Shown here in pieces: positions 478 through 41,007 of a stretch of 64,000 nt of DNA. Origin of the DNA: an uncultured bacterium (GTDB taxonomy: Bacteria; Verrucomicrobiota; Kiritimatiellia; CAIKKV01); assembly GCA_938038445.1 (NCBI GenBank), contig CALHRZ010000007.1, forward strand, positions 186,001 through 250,000. The letters are read 5' to 3'. Each line of letters opens with the position of its first letter. Position 1 is the stretch's first letter. The notes under the pieces were generated by a model. It saw only the letters and a program-made list of their open reading frames with translations. It did not search any database and had not been told where the DNA came from. The position numbers and the translations under genes were made by a program.

Positions 478-1296
478 ATGCGATCGGTTCTGCGCGAGCC
501 AGAAGAACCCCGTACGCCGATCAACCTCTTTCATTCGTGGGGGATTCAATTCCTTGCGGTCCTTCGCGAAACGGGAATTGCGGCGCTCATTCTCGTTGGC
601 GGGCTCATCGCCGTCCGGCATCTCGTTTCCTCCCGGGCGCGGAGCGACTTCATGCGTCAACTGTTTCTCGCGGGGGTCAAGAGCATTCCCGTTGTGACGG
701 TCGTCGGCATGTTTACGGGCATGATCCTTTCGCTTCAAACCGGCCTGGCCCTTCGACGGTTTGGGCAGGAAGTCAATATTGGAACCGCTGTCATGGTCTC
801 GATGCTCCGGGAGATGGGGCCCTTCATGACGGGGCTCATTCTGGCGGCCAGCGTGGGCTCCTCCATGGCGGCGCAACTGGGCACGATGACGATCTCCGAA
901 GAAGTGGCGGCGCTCGAAATCATGTCCATTGATCCCATCCGTTTTCTTGTGATGCCCCGGCTTTGGGCGCTGGCCGTCATGGGACCGCTCCTATCCTTTT
1001 ATTCCTGCATGATGGGCGTGTTCGGCGGGGGCGTTGTGGGGATGACTCAGTTGGGGGTCGCTTGGTCGGCCTACTGGGACAACGCAACCCTTTTTGCGGA
1101 TAATAAGGACCTTTGGGTCGGGATGCTCAAGGCGCTCTGCTTCGGCCTGATCATCGCGACGACGGCCTGTCATCAGGGCTTTGCGGCTCGCAAAGGCGCG
1201 ATCGGCGTCGGCGAAGCGACCCGCCGCACCGTGATCCTTTCCTTTTTGTTGATCCTCATGACGGGTTATTTCATCACACGGCTTTTCTACGTATGA
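478..1296 (+). CDS. mlaE: MlaE-type ABC permease (MCE/Mla lipid transport system 1)
   Basis: 272 residues with a hydrophilic N-terminus of about 25 residues and then five or so membrane segments, as expected for the MlaE/YrbE permease family. The family hallmark 'MSIDPIRFLVMPRLWA', the cytoplasmic coupling-helix region that contacts the ATPase, is present. The family forms the inner-membrane core of an MCE transporter that moves phospholipids between the membranes of diderm bacteria. Its TGA overlaps the ATG of the ATPase gene (ATGA at 1293-1296), which is followed by an MCE-domain gene with the same overlap, so this is a complete E-F-D operon. Direction of transport and substrate cannot be read from sequence. 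Confidence 0.93.
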   Translation: MRSVLREPEEPRTPINLFHSWGIQFLAVLRETGIAALILVGGLIAVRHLVSSRARSDFMRQLFLAGVKSIPVVTVVGMFTGMILSLQTGLALRRFGQEVNIGTAVMVSMLREMGPFMTGLILAASVGSSMAAQLGTMTISEEVAALEIMSIDPIRFLVMPRLWALAVMGPLLSFYSCMMGVFGGGVVGMTQLGVAWSAYWDNATLFADNKDLWVGMLKALCFGLIIATTACHQGFAARKGAIGVGEATRRTVILSFLLILMTGYFITRLFYV

Positions 1297-2057
1297 TCCG
1301 GTTCGAACAGGTGACGAAACGGTTTGGTTCGCAAACGGTCCTGGACCGGGTGGATCTTGAAGTTCGGCGGGGAGAGACTTTTGTGATTGTAGGCCCTTCC
1401 GGGGTCGGGAAAAGCGTCACGCTGAAGCACATGATCCGGCTCCTGACGCCCGACGAAGGTCGGGTCTGGTTGGAGGAGGATTGCGTTAATGAAGCGGATG
1501 GTGCGACGCTTGTCCGAATCCGGGACCGTTTTGGCGTGCTGTTTCAGAATGCGGCGCTTTTGGCTTGGCTGACCGTTTTTGAGAATGTCGCCCTTCCGCT
1601 TCGGGAACGGACGCGGTGGAGCGAGGCGGAGATCGCGCAACGGGTCCGGGACTGTCTGGCTCTTGTGGGGCTCGAGGCGCATGCGGAGAAATATCCCGAC
1701 GAACTGTCGGGAGGAATGCGCAAGCGGGCCGGTTTGGCGCGCGCCATCGTTCGGCGTCCGGAAATTATTCTATACGACGAGCCTACAAGCGGTTTGGATC
1801 CTGTTTCTTCCCGCTCCATCGACCGGCTCATCAACGACATGCGGGCGCAACTCGGCGTCACCAGCGTGGTCGTCACCCACGACATGCACAGCGCCTTGGG
1901 AATCGGAACCCGGATCGCCCTCATTCATGGGGGCCGTTTCGTCGAGATCGCTGAACCGGGTTCGTTTCTCCGCTCTTCCCATCCCAAAGTACGGGAGTTT
2001 TTGGAAGCCCAATACATCACGCAGCCGGGGCCTTGGAGCCCGGGAGGACGAGAATGA
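1293..2057 (+). CDS. mlaF: MlaF-type ABC transporter ATPase (system 1)
   Basis: 254 residues from the ATG that overlaps the permease stop; the open frame extends upstream but that part lies inside the permease gene. All ABC ATPase motifs are intact: Walker A GPSGVGKS (about residues 34-41), signature LSGGM (about 138), Walker B with the catalytic glutamate 'ILYDEPTSGLDP' (about 157) and the switch histidine in 'VVVTHD' (about 192). It powers the MlaE/MlaD complex on the cytoplasmic face. The intact motifs contrast with the paralogous protein at 38334-39059, where they are missing. ATGA overlap with mlaD downstream. Confidence 0.95.
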   Translation: MIRFEQVTKRFGSQTVLDRVDLEVRRGETFVIVGPSGVGKSVTLKHMIRLLTPDEGRVWLEEDCVNEADGATLVRIRDRFGVLFQNAALLAWLTVFENVALPLRERTRWSEAEIAQRVRDCLALVGLEAHAEKYPDELSGGMRKRAGLARAIVRRPEIILYDEPTSGLDPVSSRSIDRLINDMRAQLGVTSVVVTHDMHSALGIGTRIALIHGGRFVEIAEPGSFLRSSHPKVREFLEAQYITQPGPWSPGGRE

Positions 2058-3154
2058 ATACCAGAATGCAGCGAGACATCCGGTTGGAGTTGACGGTCGG
2101 TTTGGTGGTTTTTACCCTCTTCGCTGGGCTTTTGGCGTTTACCGTCTTTCTGGCCCAGGACTCCATTTTTCGCCGCACCTGGTCGGTGGAGGTGCAGTTC
2201 GGCGAAATCAGCACGCTTCGCGACGGGGACAAAGTGGTGGTCCGGGGAATGCCGGTTGGGAAGGTGAGGCGGCTGACCCTGACGAGGGAGGGCGTACGGG
2301 TCCTTTGTGCGCTGGATCAGCCGTTGGCGATCCATCGAGACTATCGGGTTCGGATCGTGTCCACTTCGATGCTCGGCGGCAAGGCGCTTCAGATTGATGC
2401 GGGATCTCCTCCCGAGGAACTTCTGCCGGAGGGAACTCTCCTCGTCGGGACCGATCCGACCGATTTGGTCGAGGAAGCCTCTTCGGCGGTTGCGCGGATT
2501 CGAAATGCACTTGAAGAGGGCGCGATTCTCGAAAATATCCAGGCGGGAGTTGCTTCCTTTCGCGAGGTGGCCGACAAAGTAAACGCGGGAGAGGGGGTCT
2601 TGGGCCGGCTGGTCAACGATCGTGAGATGGCCGATTCGCTTTCGGCCTTTGCGGCCCGACTCAAGGAGGTGTCCAGCCGCATCGAACGCCAGGAAGGATT
2701 GCTGGGAAAACTCCTCTCACCCGACGACACGCTGTACCGGGATATTTCCGAGACGGCCGCTTCCTTCAAGGCGATTGCGGTTCGGCTTGAGCAGGGCGAG
2801 GGCACTCTCGGCAAACTTCTCTCCGCCGACGATTCTTTGTATCGGGATCTCGCCGATACGGCCGCTTCGCTCAAAACCTTAGCGGCCCGGTTGGAAAACG
2901 GCGAAGGACTGTTGGGTAAGTTGATGAATCCGGAAGAAACTCTATACCAGGACATCCGGGAGACTGTGGCGGCGCTGAAGTCCGTTGCGCAGGGGCTTGA
3001 GAAAGGAGAGGGGACGTTAGGGCTTTTGCTCCGCGATGAGGCGGTGTACAAGCAGGTCAAGACGGCCCTTGAGCAACTGAATGCCGCGCTGGACGATTAT
3101 CGCGAAACCGCTCCGATCACGGCGTTTGGGAGTTTGATTCTTGGGGCCCTGTAG
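2054..3154 (+). CDS. mlaD: MlaD-type MCE-domain protein with long repeat-containing C-terminus (system 1)
   Basis: 366 residues. A single membrane segment near residues 14-35 anchors the protein, followed by one MCE domain (about residues 40-125, including 'VVRGMPVGKVRRLTL' and 'VRIVSTSMLGGKALQID'). The remaining 200 or so residues are helical and carry four 35-residue repeats beginning '(L/T)LGKLLS-DD-LYRD' plus one shorter, diverged copy. MCE proteins form hexameric rings or tubes that shield lipid in the periplasm, and the repeats could lengthen a helical needle (inference). The start ATG at 2054 overlaps the ATPase stop. Last gene of the operon; a 5-bp inverted repeat at 3151-3166 is too weak to call as a terminator. 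Confidence 0.92.
   Translation: MNTRMQRDIRLELTVGLVVFTLFAGLLAFTVFLAQDSIFRRTWSVEVQFGEISTLRDGDKVVVRGMPVGKVRRLTLTREGVRVLCALDQPLAIHRDYRVRIVSTSMLGGKALQIDAGSPPEELLPEGTLLVGTDPTDLVEEASSAVARIRNALEEGAILENIQAGVASFREVADKVNAGEGVLGRLVNDREMADSLSAFAARLKEVSSRIERQEGLLGKLLSPDDTLYRDISETAASFKAIAVRLEQGEGTLGKLLSADDSLYRDLADTAASLKTLAARLENGEGLLGKLMNPEETLYQDIRETVAALKSVAQGLEKGEGTLGLLLRDEAVYKQVKTALEQLNAALDDYRETAPITAFGSLILGAL
2597..3118 (+). repeat. In-frame 105-bp (35-aa) repeats in the MlaD-like gene
   Basis: Units start at 2699, 2804, 2909 and 3014, exactly 105 nt apart, preceded by a diverged 102-nt unit at 2597. Each encodes a glycine turn (GEG-LGKLL) followed by an acidic segment and an amphipathic helix (TAASLK-LA-RLE). 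Thirty-five is five heptads, which fits a coiled-coil extension. Confidence 0.85.
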
Positions 3155-37555: not shown

Positions 37556-38341
37556 ATGTCCTGGCTTGGAGGAGTGGGCGAGGGGGTTTGGAACGGTTTT
37601 CGTTCGGTGGCCTATGTCGCGGCGGTTATTGCGGCTACCCTTCGCTTGGGGGTGTGCCGTTCGACATGGTCGGCGCCGGTGCGGCGGGTACTGGTGCTTC
37701 AGGTTTATTTTACGGCGGTTCAGGCGATTCCCTTTGTTTTGCTTCTTTCGTTCTTGATGGGGGGAACGATTGTGGTGCAGGGGTATTTGTTGGCCCGATT
37801 GACGGGAGACAGCCGCCTTATCGGCGGGGTACTGGTTGTGTTGCTGATGCGGGAACTGGCCCCGTTGGTGGTGAATTTTGTAGTAATTGGGCGGAGCGGG
37901 TCGGCCATTGCCGCGGAGATGGCCGCAGGGGCGGTGGGGGGTGACTGGAAAACGTTGGAGGCGCAGGGGGTGGATCCCATGGTCTATCTCGTGACGCCCC
38001 GGGTGTTGGGCGCTGGTGTTTCGGTGTTCTGCCTGACGGTGTTGTTTGTGACCCTGGCCTTCATCTCGGGTTATTTTTTATCTGCATTATTGGGGCTGAC
38101 GACGACGCCGCGCCATTTCGTTTCCCTTCTTTTTGCGGCGGTTTCTCCTGCGGACGGATGGGCGTTACCGGCGCGGACGATTTTGCCGGGGTTTATGACG
38201 GGGGCGATTGCCTGTGTGGAGGGGTTGCGGGTGCGGGGGCAGTTGACGGAGATCCCTCAGGCGACGACGCGGGCTGTGGTTCGGGCGACGACGGCACTGG
38301 TGGTTGTACTGGCGCTTTTGACGGTGATTCTTTATGCCTGA
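37556..38341 (+). CDS. MlaE-type ABC permease (MCE system 2)
   Basis: 261 residues with GGAGG before the ATG. The MlaE family pattern is clear: 'YFTAVQAIPFVLLLSFLMGG', 'LLMRELAPLVVNFVVIGRSG' with 'SAIAAEMAAG', and the coupling segment 'EAQGVDPMVYLVTPRVLG'. It is only distantly similar to the permease at 478-1296. The following gene overlaps by 8 nt and encodes an ATPase-like subunit without ATP-binding motifs. The coupling helix is conserved, so the permease presumably still docks an ATPase; which one is an open question. Confidence 0.92.
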   Translation: MSWLGGVGEGVWNGFRSVAYVAAVIAATLRLGVCRSTWSAPVRRVLVLQVYFTAVQAIPFVLLLSFLMGGTIVVQGYLLARLTGDSRLIGGVLVVLLMRELAPLVVNFVVIGRSGSAIAAEMAAGAVGGDWKTLEAQGVDPMVYLVTPRVLGAGVSVFCLTVLFVTLAFISGYFLSALLGLTTTPRHFVSLLFAAVSPADGWALPARTILPGFMTGAIACVEGLRVRGQLTEIPQATTRAVVRATTALVVVLALLTVILYA

Positions 38342-39059
38342 TTCGGAATGCATTTTGGAATTTGAAGCGGTGGATCTGGTCGATCCGCTCTATCCTGCGG
38401 AATCGCTGCGGGCGATGAGTTTTTCCCTGCGCGCCGGAGAAAGCCTTTTGATCCGTCCCCGATTGGCGATTCACGAAGAAAAAGGGGGGCTGGAGTCATT
38501 TCCGTTGGCGGATTGCGTAGAGGGTCTGTGGCCCTGTTCGAGGGGAATGGTGCGGTTTCAGGGCCGTGCATGGTCGGATTATTCGACCCGCGAGCAATGG
38601 AAAGCCCGGGCGCAGATCGGTCGAGTTTTTGCCTTTCATGCATGGGTGAATAATCTGACGGTCCTGGAGAACCTGACGTTGGCGGGTTGTTTTCATCAGC
38701 TGGCAACGGCGAGCGAGTTGGAACGGCGTGCGGTCGAGTGGGCGCGCCGTTTTGGTCTTGACGGGGTGCCGGGGGTGCGGCCAGGGTTTGTCGGGAAAAC
38801 GGAATTGCGTCGGCTGGAATGGGTGCGGGCATTTCTCCTCGTGCCTCGGCTGTTGCTTCTCGAGTTTCCGGAAATGGATGCGCCTTGGGGGGTGTTGCCG
38901 CTGTTGGTTCAAGCGGTGGTTGAGGCGATGTCAAGGGGCGCGGCGGTTCTTTGGATTACGGACGATCCCGCCCTGATGGCGGAGGCGCGTGCGCATGGTG
39001 CGGTTGTGATGGAGGCGGTGGGGGGGCAGTTGAAGCGGGTGGAGGAGAATGGGAAATGA
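38334..39059 (+). CDS. Degenerate MlaF-like ABC ATPase subunit (probable pseudo-ATPase)
   Basis: 241 residues in the genomic position of MlaF and about the same size. The ABC outline survives: strand and turn 'MSFSLRAGESLLI', 'GMVRFQGRAWSDYSTREQ', Q-loop region 'IGRVFAFHAWVNNLTVLENL', and 'LLVPRLLLLEFPEMDAPWGV' where Walker B belongs. But Walker A is gone: after 'AGESLLI' comes 'RPRLAIHEEKGGLESF' with no GxxGxGKS; LSGGQ is replaced by 'GKTELRRLEWVRAF'; the DE dyad is EF; the switch His is D in 'VLWITDDPA'. The frame is unbroken and overlaps both neighbours by start-stop overlaps, so it is not a frameshift remnant. Likely a structural or regulatory subunit; this reading is inference. Confidence 0.75.
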   Translation: MPDSECILEFEAVDLVDPLYPAESLRAMSFSLRAGESLLIRPRLAIHEEKGGLESFPLADCVEGLWPCSRGMVRFQGRAWSDYSTREQWKARAQIGRVFAFHAWVNNLTVLENLTLAGCFHQLATASELERRAVEWARRFGLDGVPGVRPGFVGKTELRRLEWVRAFLLVPRLLLLEFPEMDAPWGVLPLLVQAVVEAMSRGAAVLWITDDPALMAEARAHGAVVMEAVGGQLKRVEENGK

Positions 39060-40072
39060 GTCAAGCAACGGCTGGAACGACGCGTTTGCGGTGGGTGCAT
39101 GAGGTCACAGGAGCGGTCGTCTTGTTTTGTGTGGGTCTATTTGTGGCGGGGTTGCTGCTGGCCGGTCGGGCGCAAGGATGGTTCGAGAAGGATTTTGTTC
39201 TGCGGACGACGTTGAAGAAGAGCGCGATGAATTTGCAGCGGGGAACGGAGGTCCAGATTCAGGGCGCATTGGCGGGTCGGGTTGGCGACATTGTTCCGGA
39301 CGAGCAAGGAGACCTTCAGACGACCTACATTCTGCGCGGGCGGTTCCGGGATCTGATCCGGACCAACAGCGTGGCGGTGGTGAAGAAGAAGTTTCAGATT
39401 TTCGGGGATGCGTATGTCGAGATCACGCCGGGAGATCGGCGTCTTCCGCCCATGGAACCGCATGGATGGATCGAAACGATGGAAGACGTCCAATTGTTGG
39501 AAAAGATTGCCGAATTCGTTGAGGATGCGCGTCTGACGGTCATTCCCATGCTGGAAGAGGTTCAAAACATTCTGATGAATGTGAATGAGATTCTTTTGGC
39601 GGCGACCGAAGGGAAGGGGCTCGTCGGCGCGCTTCTTCGCGAGGAGGCGCTGGTTCGGAAGGTTGAAGAGATTCTGGAGGAAGTTGAGCGAACCACGGCG
39701 GAGTCCCCTGCGGTTGTGCGCGAGACGACGGCATTGGTGCAGGAGGCGAAGGGGCTGGTGGAAGATCTGCGTCGGCTGACGGGGGAAACGGAGGCGAAAA
39801 TTCGGTTTCTGGACACGGCTAGGTTGGGACAAGAGGCGGAGAGCGTGATGAAGGGGGCGAGGGAGGCGGTCGCGACAGCGGAAGGGGTTTTGAAGGAAGC
39901 GGATCTTCCTTCGCTTCTTCGGGAGACGGAACGGATGTTGCGGGAGGTACGGCGTTTGACCGAAGCGTTGCAGCGTCACTGGCTCTTGCGCCGATATCGG
40001 GAAGGCCCCGACGCGGGGGTGCGGTGGGACGATCCCTGGCAGCTTCCGGTGGGGCAGGAGGAAATTCGATGA
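39056..40072 (+). CDS. MlaD-type MCE-domain protein (system 2)
   Basis: 338 residues. Membrane helix near residues 18-38 ('GAVVLFCVGLFVAGLLLAG'), then a single MCE domain (about 42-125, 'LQRGTEVQIQGALAGRVGDI' and 'FQIFGDAYVEITPG'). The C-terminal 200 residues are charged, helical and coiled-coil-like, without the 35-residue repeats of system 1. ATGA overlap with the pseudo-ATPase gene and with the lipoprotein gene that follows. It should form the periplasmic lipid conduit of the second transporter. Confidence 0.9.
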   Translation: MSQATAGTTRLRWVHEVTGAVVLFCVGLFVAGLLLAGRAQGWFEKDFVLRTTLKKSAMNLQRGTEVQIQGALAGRVGDIVPDEQGDLQTTYILRGRFRDLIRTNSVAVVKKKFQIFGDAYVEITPGDRRLPPMEPHGWIETMEDVQLLEKIAEFVEDARLTVIPMLEEVQNILMNVNEILLAATEGKGLVGALLREEALVRKVEEILEEVERTTAESPAVVRETTALVQEAKGLVEDLRRLTGETEAKIRFLDTARLGQEAESVMKGAREAVATAEGVLKEADLPSLLRETERMLREVRRLTEALQRHWLLRRYREGPDAGVRWDDPWQLPVGQEEIR

Positions 40073-41007
40073 GCATACGGCGGTGGATGGGCGTGGTGGG
40101 TGGCGGGGTTTGTTTACTGCTGGTGGGATGCGCGAGTCGGGGCGGAGGGAGCTCGGTGACGGGGGGTGAACTTTTGTTTCGCGATGCGGTGGAAACGGCC
40201 AGGGCGGCGGCGGAAGGGGGCCGTTATGAGGCGGCGGTTTGGGGATATGCGGAGGCACGGCGGGTGGCGATTCGGGCGGGAAATCTTGGGGAGGCGACAC
40301 GAAGCGCGTTGCGGGCGGGACAATGGGCGATTGCGGCGGGGCGGGGAGAGGAGGCGGAGCGGTGGTTGAGGTTGGCGGAGCAGGAGGGGCGGCTCATGGG
40401 CGTGTGGGATGTCGCGGCTCGGGCGCTTCTTTTGCGAGGGTGGTTTGCATTGGAAAGGGGGGAGACGGCTGCGGCTCGGGAGGCGTGCGAAGGGGTGTTG
40501 GCTTTATGGAAGAGAACGACCGATCGGGATCTGGAGCGGGACGTTCGTCTTTTTCGGGCGGAATTGGCTTTACGAGAGGGGGGATATGAAGAGGCACGTC
40601 GGGAGCTGGAGGCGATTTCTCGGCGGGCGAAGCCTGTGGCGGGTTCGCCGGCAGCGGCGATGGCGGAGCAGATTTTGGGGGGAATTTTAGAAGGCGAGGG
40701 AAGAAAGGGGGAGGCGGCGGAGCGGTATGAGGGGGCGGCTTTCCTTTGGGAACGGGTTGGCCGTCCGGACCGTGCGGCTCGTGCGTGGAAGCGTGCGTCG
40801 GAGCTTTGGAAGGAGGAGCGAGAGGCGGAACGGGGTGTGGTGGCATTGATACGCGCGGCGCTTCAGAGCGAGGCGATCGGAGAACGGGCTTCTGCGATAC
40901 GGATGGTGCGGGAGGCGGCGGAGTGGGCGGCGGCAACCGGAATGGGCGGCTGGGCGGAATGGGCGATGGGGTTGGAGGGCTTGTGGCAAAAGGTAAGGAC
41001 TCCGTGA
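40069..41007 (+). CDS. Lipoprotein with TPR-like helical repeats
   Basis: 312 residues. Signal peptide with lipobox 'LLLVGC' (Cys20). The mature chain is almost all alanine/glutamate/arginine-rich helices with TPR-like spacing, such as 'AAEGGRYEAAVWGYAEARRV', 'LALREGGYEEARRELEAISR' and 'GRKGEAAERYEGAAFLWERV'. AGGAGG lies 6 nt before the ATG. It closes the MCE operon 2. Other MCE operons often end with an accessory lipoprotein, but usually of a different fold, so its role as a docking partner is a guess. Confidence 0.8.
   Translation: MSIRRWMGVVGGGVCLLLVGCASRGGGSSVTGGELLFRDAVETARAAAEGGRYEAAVWGYAEARRVAIRAGNLGEATRSALRAGQWAIAAGRGEEAERWLRLAEQEGRLMGVWDVAARALLLRGWFALERGETAAAREACEGVLALWKRTTDRDLERDVRLFRAELALREGGYEEARRELEAISRRAKPVAGSPAAAMAEQILGGILEGEGRKGEAAERYEGAAFLWERVGRPDRAARAWKRASELWKEEREAERGVVALIRAALQSEAIGERASAIRMVREAAEWAAATGMGGWAEWAMGLEGLWQKVRTP

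Follow-up and report, generated by a model that had tools for sequence, protein, structure and literature searches.

ABC transporters are defined by ATP-driven nucleotide-binding domains (NBDs), and an operon whose only NBD gene appears to have lost its ATP site raises the question of what such a domain is still kept for. The gene in question lies in the second of two MlaE-MCE operons of the window, by which we mean the whole stretch of 64,000 nucleotides that was analysed. A first-pass annotation had placed it between an MlaE permease gene and an MCE gene, overlapping both, and had taken its product for a pseudo-ATPase in the MlaF position. The operon is made of four genes:

37556..38341, + strand: MlaE2, MlaE-family permease of the pF-linked subfamily (Pfam MlaE 2.1e-46; clade support; subfamily profile)
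38334..39059, + strand: pF, pseudo-ATPase (degenerate ABC nucleotide-binding domain) in the MlaF position (ORF, Pfam, AlphaFold, Foldseek and alignment)
39056..40072, + strand: MCE2, with one TM helix, one MCE domain (about residues 46-143) and a long helical C-terminal region
40069..41007, + strand: TPR lipoprotein, conserved fourth gene, with lipobox LLVGC (sub-cut-off Pfam TPR matches)

The pF open reading frame encodes 241 amino acids from an ATG start and does overlap both neighbours, by 8 nt between the pF start and the MlaE2 stop and by 4 nt between the MCE2 start and the pF stop (ATGA at 39056). The MCE2 stop is overlapped in turn by the TPR lipoprotein gene. MlaE2 belongs to the MlaE family (158.6 bits with PF02405, cut-off 22.5) and MCE2 to the MCE (MlaD) family (Pfam MlaD 2.3e-7, 31.4 bits, cut-off 25.1); pF obtains 1.1e-4 and 23.3 bits with Pfam ABC_tran, slightly below the 25-bit cut-off. 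The AlphaFold model of MCE2 displays the TM helix, the single MCE domain and the long helical region, the helical half being of low confidence. A Foldseek search with this model matched Mce1 and MlaD, the Mce1 chains being best by E-value.

For comparison, the first operon of the window is canonical:

478..1296, + strand: MlaE1, canonical MlaE permease (Pfam MlaE 1.6e-70)
1293..2057, + strand: MlaF1, canonical, all motifs present (Pfam ABC_tran 4.6e-31, NCBIfam MlaF 2.5e-50)
2054..3154, + strand: MlaD1, MCE protein (Pfam MlaD 7.2e-13), whose ATG at 2054 overlaps the mlaF1 stop

MlaF1 had already been recognised as a canonical MlaF, and it is indeed motif-complete; the four motifs are also intact in the MlaF1 of 20 out of 20 pF-bearing genomes examined. 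With the NCBIfam MlaF model NF008809 (cut-off 441), pF scored 16.1 bits and MlaF1 itself, also below the cut-off, 171 bits.

Structure prediction of pF alone, one of the checks suggested beforehand, yielded an ABC fold. The AlphaFold model, calculated with 30 homologues as input, has a mean pLDDT of 92.7 and a pTM of 0.90, and its best PDB matches by Foldseek were FtsE (8hd0, TM 0.82/0.90), YbbA, LolD and E. coli MlaF (6xgz, 0.78). By sequence, the pF family profile matched LolD, FtsE and MlaF at 1e-17 to 1e-23. On the basis of the model, the PDB matches and the profile matches, pF is counted as an ABC nucleotide-binding domain by predicted fold, with a RecA-like core and a helical subdomain. 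An unrelated fold was ruled out by the AlphaFold model together with the Foldseek matches to ABC ATPases. In related genomes, a score gap clearly divides pF orthologues from generic ABC ATPases. LolD being the best profile match could suggest that pF did not originate from MlaF; against this, all LolD-type profile scores are low and some NBDs of the Planctomycetota sister clade described below score best with MlaF1. In the alignment pF ends about 25-30 residues before MlaF1, and the C-terminal 'handshake' extension, which holds MlaF dimers together in E. coli (PMC7367683), is absent.

The ATP-site motifs were counted in a profile alignment of 76 non-redundant pF homologues. In pF of the window, their former positions are occupied as follows:

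38454..38504, + strand: degenerate P-loop, residues 41-57, RPRLAIHEEKGGLESFP, without GxxGxGK[ST]
38790..38804, + strand: former signature position, VGKTE instead of an LSGGQ-type motif
38853..38870, + strand: former Walker B, LLLEFP, with Asp replaced by Glu and the catalytic Glu by Phe
38961..38963, + strand: former H-switch, Asp210 instead of His

The absence of Walker A, the signature, the catalytic Glu and the H-switch, first noticed in this single protein, turned out to be family-wide. Walker A (GxxGxGK[ST]) was found in 0/76 homologues and LSGGQ at the signature position in none of the 76; SGG/SAG strings occur six times, five of them outside the signature position and one, degenerate, nearby (VSAG in L104). 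The Walker B Asp is kept in 3/76 and replaced by Glu in 65/76, the position of the catalytic Glu holds Arg in 38/76 and Glu in 7/76 and is otherwise varied, and there is no conserved His at the H-switch position across the 76. Intact Walker motifs, or an intact ATP site, in the same gene position were thus encountered in none of the 76 members of the pF family; parts of the site are retained at that position only in the sister-clade systems of Planctomycetota. A motif loss peculiar to the window genome was ruled out, the losses being common to the homologues. Judging from these alignments, it is close to certain that pF would have no canonical ATPase function. A seven-residue insertion in the dead P-loop (38454-38504) is shared by pF of the window and its nearest relative, L009, and is absent from the other aligned homologues.

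Conservation in pF has shifted from the ATP site to W163, R165 and A166, after the former signature, and to the coupling-groove block, the most conserved of the protein:

38622..38681, + strand: residues 97-116, RVFAFHAWVNNLTVLENLTL, with W104, N107, L108, E112 and N113 at 91-100%

We take this block, located after the Q-loop, to be the equivalent of the coupling-helix groove in established NBD structure. The mean modal frequency is 0.72 in the Q-loop/coupling-groove block, 0.34 in the signature and 0.32 in Walker A; of the blocks compared, the P-loop region shows the lowest conservation and is often acidic (EEGRE). The dN/dS values of 16 close pairs range from 0.11 to 0.34, and pF is under purifying selection. 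Given these values and the homologues found in 38 of the 289 genomes of the phylum, pF is neither a chance frame nor a decaying copy. A frameshift or pseudogene was likewise ruled out, by the same values and the 76 intact homologues.

The distribution and INTERMEDIATES place pF proper in 38/289 phylum genomes, all of the window's class, in 4/246 sampled Planctomycetota and in 5/44 genomes of another phylum-level group, which was reached via an Erginobacter-labelled MAG. Intact pF frames occur in about 17 families within the class and in further groups of the PVC. Gene order was analysed in 61 loci from named genomes, whose titles are mostly Kiritimatiellae, Verrucomicrobia, Lentisphaerae and PVC MAGs: the order MlaE2-pF-MCE2 is unbroken in all of them save where the contig ends, with a median spacing of +7 nt between MlaE2 and pF and of -4 nt between pF and MCE2. 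The TPR lipoprotein gene is directly 3' of MCE2 in 44 loci; more than 700 bp are available downstream of MCE2 in 51 loci, and two of the 44 lipoprotein-positive loci have less. The order E-pseudoF-D-lipoprotein put forward in the first-pass annotation was thereby confirmed, the lipoprotein carrying a lipobox, and the ABC fold, the shared losses and the conserved gene order strongly support a pseudo-ATPase in the MlaF position.

In five further cases (L073, L078, L087, L091 and L094), MCE2 and a domain similar to the TPR lipoprotein are fused in a single ORF, which suggests that both proteins act together. The fusion is followed by rpoD in 4 of the 5 loci; the contig of L091 stops there.

The permease of the operon is as distinctive as its NBD. 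MlaE2 forms a separate clade in the permease tree (support 100/99). Its profile detects a member in 38 of the 289 phylum genomes, one of them split by contig ends, and these are precisely the genomes with pF. In the other 251 genomes the sole match above threshold has 160 bits (G299), in the canonical range, full-length MlaE2 proteins scoring at least 319 bits. No MlaE2 without pF was seen in the 289 phylum genomes. In two genomes of one genus (G129 and G142), MlaE2 and pF-MCE2 are on different contigs and both are retained, so that the link between pF and MlaE2 is not merely positional. The split loci are G129:C29 and G142:C7 (L143, L144) on one side and L104 and L105 on the other. MlaE2 also differs from canonical permeases in the helix that should contact the NBD:

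37934..37978, + strand: MlaE2 coupling-helix segment, VGGDWKTLEAQGVDP, in which the canonical (S/T)E(E/Q)xxAL is lost

The first Glu of the EE/EQ motif is present in 17/17 canonical MlaE proteins and in 0/26 MlaE2 proteins, and is also lost in seven Planctomycetota permeases with degenerate NBDs. The coupling helix joins MlaE to MlaF (PMC7790496), and the matching motif of mycobacterial YrbE permeases is the proposed MceG-binding site (PMC9947336).

These Planctomycetota permeases bear on how the motifs were lost. They form a clade (support 95/89) that appears as sister to MlaE2 (93/74) in a midpoint-rooted tree with long branches. The NBDs beside them have lost the ATP site to different degrees, as if an ABC motor had been caught at successive stages of decay. 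The NBD of L138 keeps GPSGQGKS and LDEP, with LPEMA as signature and no H-switch, and that of L178 keeps VIDEP. P-loops are kept in L181, with LSTGE, LLDDP and no H-switch, and in L180 and L182, with VIDNP and VLDQP, respectively. Nearly all motifs are lost in L139 and L179, and L139 has the same four-gene order as the operon of the window. L183, which branches outside the sister clade, has a nearly complete ATP site and a canonical coupling helix (SEELEAL). These states suggest that residues of hydrolysis may have been lost before the P-loop. The first-pass annotation had considered the frame intact and the loss selected or tolerated as a whole. The frame is intact, as it is in the 76 homologues; loss 'as a whole' needs amending, since the partly decayed NBDs of the sister systems suggest a probably stepwise rather than wholesale process. 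Among the PF02405 matches listed for Planctomycetota, only top-scoring canonical permeases appeared.

The operon was then compared with known systems. With MlaFEDB and the minimal MlaEFD (E. coli; Veillonella parvula, PMC10665443) it shares the MlaE-NBD-MCE order, the start-stop overlaps, the MlaE and MCE families and the ABC fold of the protein in NBD position; MCE2 resembles the 'long' MlaD without beta-barrel reported for PVC (PMC10665443). It differs from them by the absence from pF of Walker A, signature, catalytic Glu, H-switch and C-terminal extension, by the loss of the EE motif in MlaE2 and by the extra TPR lipoprotein gene. In Brucella abortus, MpcEFDA (PMC12436622) likewise consists of four genes, for a permease, an NBD, an MCE protein and a lipoprotein, and its MCE needle is predicted to be helical, but MpcF is described as an MlaF-homologous ABC ATPase, MpcA is PqiC-like instead of TPR-type and MpcE carries a STAS domain at its N-terminus. 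PqiABC and LetAB are also MCE conduits with an inner-membrane partner devoid of ATPase, PqiC being a lipoprotein anchor; their partners are PqiA and LetA, whereas the pF operon retains an MlaE-type permease together with a dead ABC domain. The mycobacterial MceG-dependent Mce1 and Mce4 systems combine YrbE/MlaE-type permeases with MCE proteins, and the MCE2 model resembles Mce1, but they share one active ATPase in trans, keep the coupling-loop EExDA and have no pseudo-NBD. Natural loss of NBD catalytic residues is known in ABC transporters with one degenerate site (TAP, PatAB, BmrCD, MsRv1273c/72c). Those keep one competent composite site, whereas the only NBD of the pF operon has lost both halves of both. 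No description of a pseudo-ATPase in an MlaE/MCE operon was found in the literature searched, a search thin on subscription papers and without bioRxiv preprints. The pF system is real and conserved, undescribed in that literature, and is a variant of MlaEFD.

What could such a complex do? We propose that pF is a catalytically dead scaffold that would hold MlaE2-MCE2 in an open, nucleotide-free-like state for passive lipid transfer along the MCE conduit, a model to which we give an even chance. In this model pF would replace MlaF as the dedicated cytoplasmic subunit of the second MlaE-MCE complex, and a pF dimer would dock on the coupling helices of the MlaE2 dimer as a scaffold or lock rather than an engine. 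As no ATP-driven cycle would take place, MlaE2 should remain in the nucleotide-free-like state, with its opening towards MCE2, so that lipid could pass passively between the inner membrane and the MCE2 conduit, made of a ring and a helical needle. The TPR lipoprotein may anchor this conduit at the outer membrane, and MlaE1-F1-D1 would remain the ATP-driven arm of the same genome. It is plausible that the complex uses no ATP. Because the helical half of MCE2 is modelled with low confidence, a transenvelope conduit would be an extrapolation from the prediction.

Several published observations bear on this scaffold model. The K47A and E170Q variants of E. coli MlaF fail in complementation (PMC7367683), and hence pF cannot sustain a canonical Mla cycle. 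ATP-free MlaE is reported to be open towards MlaD, and phospholipids are reported to move from MlaD to MlaC in the absence of ATP, a transfer that hydrolysis suppresses (PMC10212509). The PqiB and LetB conduits work with partners without ATPase (PMC12436622). On the other side, MceG Walker B mutants destabilise Mce complexes in M. tuberculosis (PMC9947336), so that a dead NBD need not stabilise an MCE permease. Moreover, no pF genome without a canonical MlaE was found, all those examined (33/33 and, in another set, 11/11) carrying both, and this gene content would allow help from MlaF1 in trans.

Two rival arrangements would involve MlaF1. In an NBD dimer, each ATP site is assembled from both subunits, one contributing its Walker motifs and its partner the signature. 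The mixed pair envisaged in the first-pass annotation, in which active MlaF1 and dead pF would be heterodimeric NBDs on MlaE2, agrees with the co-occurrence of MlaF1 in 33/33 pF-bearing genomes. But since pF has neither Walker A nor signature, neither composite site would be complete in an MlaF1/pF dimer; MlaE2 no longer has the EE motif of the coupling helix, the MlaF C-terminal extension is missing from pF, and the occurrence of pF matches that of MlaE2 exactly, while many genomes devoid of pF still carry MlaF1. Known ABC heterodimers do keep one degenerate site (PMC12038006, PMC9541285). On balance the mixed pair is disfavoured and we consider it very unlikely. Alternatively, MlaF1 or another ABC ATPase could power MlaE2 in trans as a homodimer, pF being a regulator or a competitor for NBD docking. 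MceG serves both Mce1 and Mce4 (PMC9947336), and every pF-bearing genome checked has MlaF1. The diverged coupling helix of MlaE2 speaks against this arrangement, as does the absence of any MlaE2 without pF in 289 genomes. The pF gene, moreover, is enclosed by mlaE2 and mce2 and either overlaps these neighbours or is set off from them by very small gaps, which is what one would expect if pF were a stoichiometric subunit; we hold powering in trans to be unlikely.

It is also conceivable that pF binds nucleotide or another ligand non-canonically, the complex being ligand-gated rather than permanently passive. The conservative change of the Walker B Asp to Glu in 65/76 homologues, the highly conserved family-specific Trp and Arg, and the sister Planctomycetota NBDs that keep P-loops and lose hydrolysis residues point in this direction. 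The P-loop is nevertheless the least conserved block compared (0.32), often acidic (EEGRE), and the sequences reveal no replacement pocket common to the family, which makes such gating quite unlikely. Finally, with all its catalytic motifs gone, pF might be a functionless relic of an ATPase copy; its intact frames over some 17 families and other PVC groups, the purifying selection, the invariant residues and the strict association with MlaE2 leave this explanation scarcely credible.

Returning to the scaffold model, we further suggest, tentatively and with somewhat less than an even chance, that in a PVC-wide MlaE branch an ABC lipid transporter once driven by ATP became a conduit independent of it. 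The NBD would have become a structural subunit, fully dead in the form of pF in bacteria of the Kiritimatiellia type. The partly decayed NBDs of Planctomycetota look like steps on this path, apparent intermediates between a motor domain and a scaffold. If this is true, ATP may be dispensable for a transporter from a family that textbooks describe as ATP-driven. A conserved MlaE complex whose sole NBD gene has lost all ATP-site motifs would be a natural test of what an MlaE-MCE assembly does without ATP, and the behaviour of MlaE-MCE without ATP is the core of the dispute on the direction of Mla transport (PMC10212509). Surveys that find MlaF by an ATPase profile (e.g. PMC10665443) may miss or mislabel such systems.

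Other arrangements of MlaE genes were also met. Two single ORFs, L106:2009-3532 (507 aa) and L145:2070-3668 (532 aa), fuse a motif-complete NBD with an MlaE-like permease, and G313:C102:3619-5070 is a tandem pair of MlaE genes, comparable to the mycobacterial YrbE A/B pairs.
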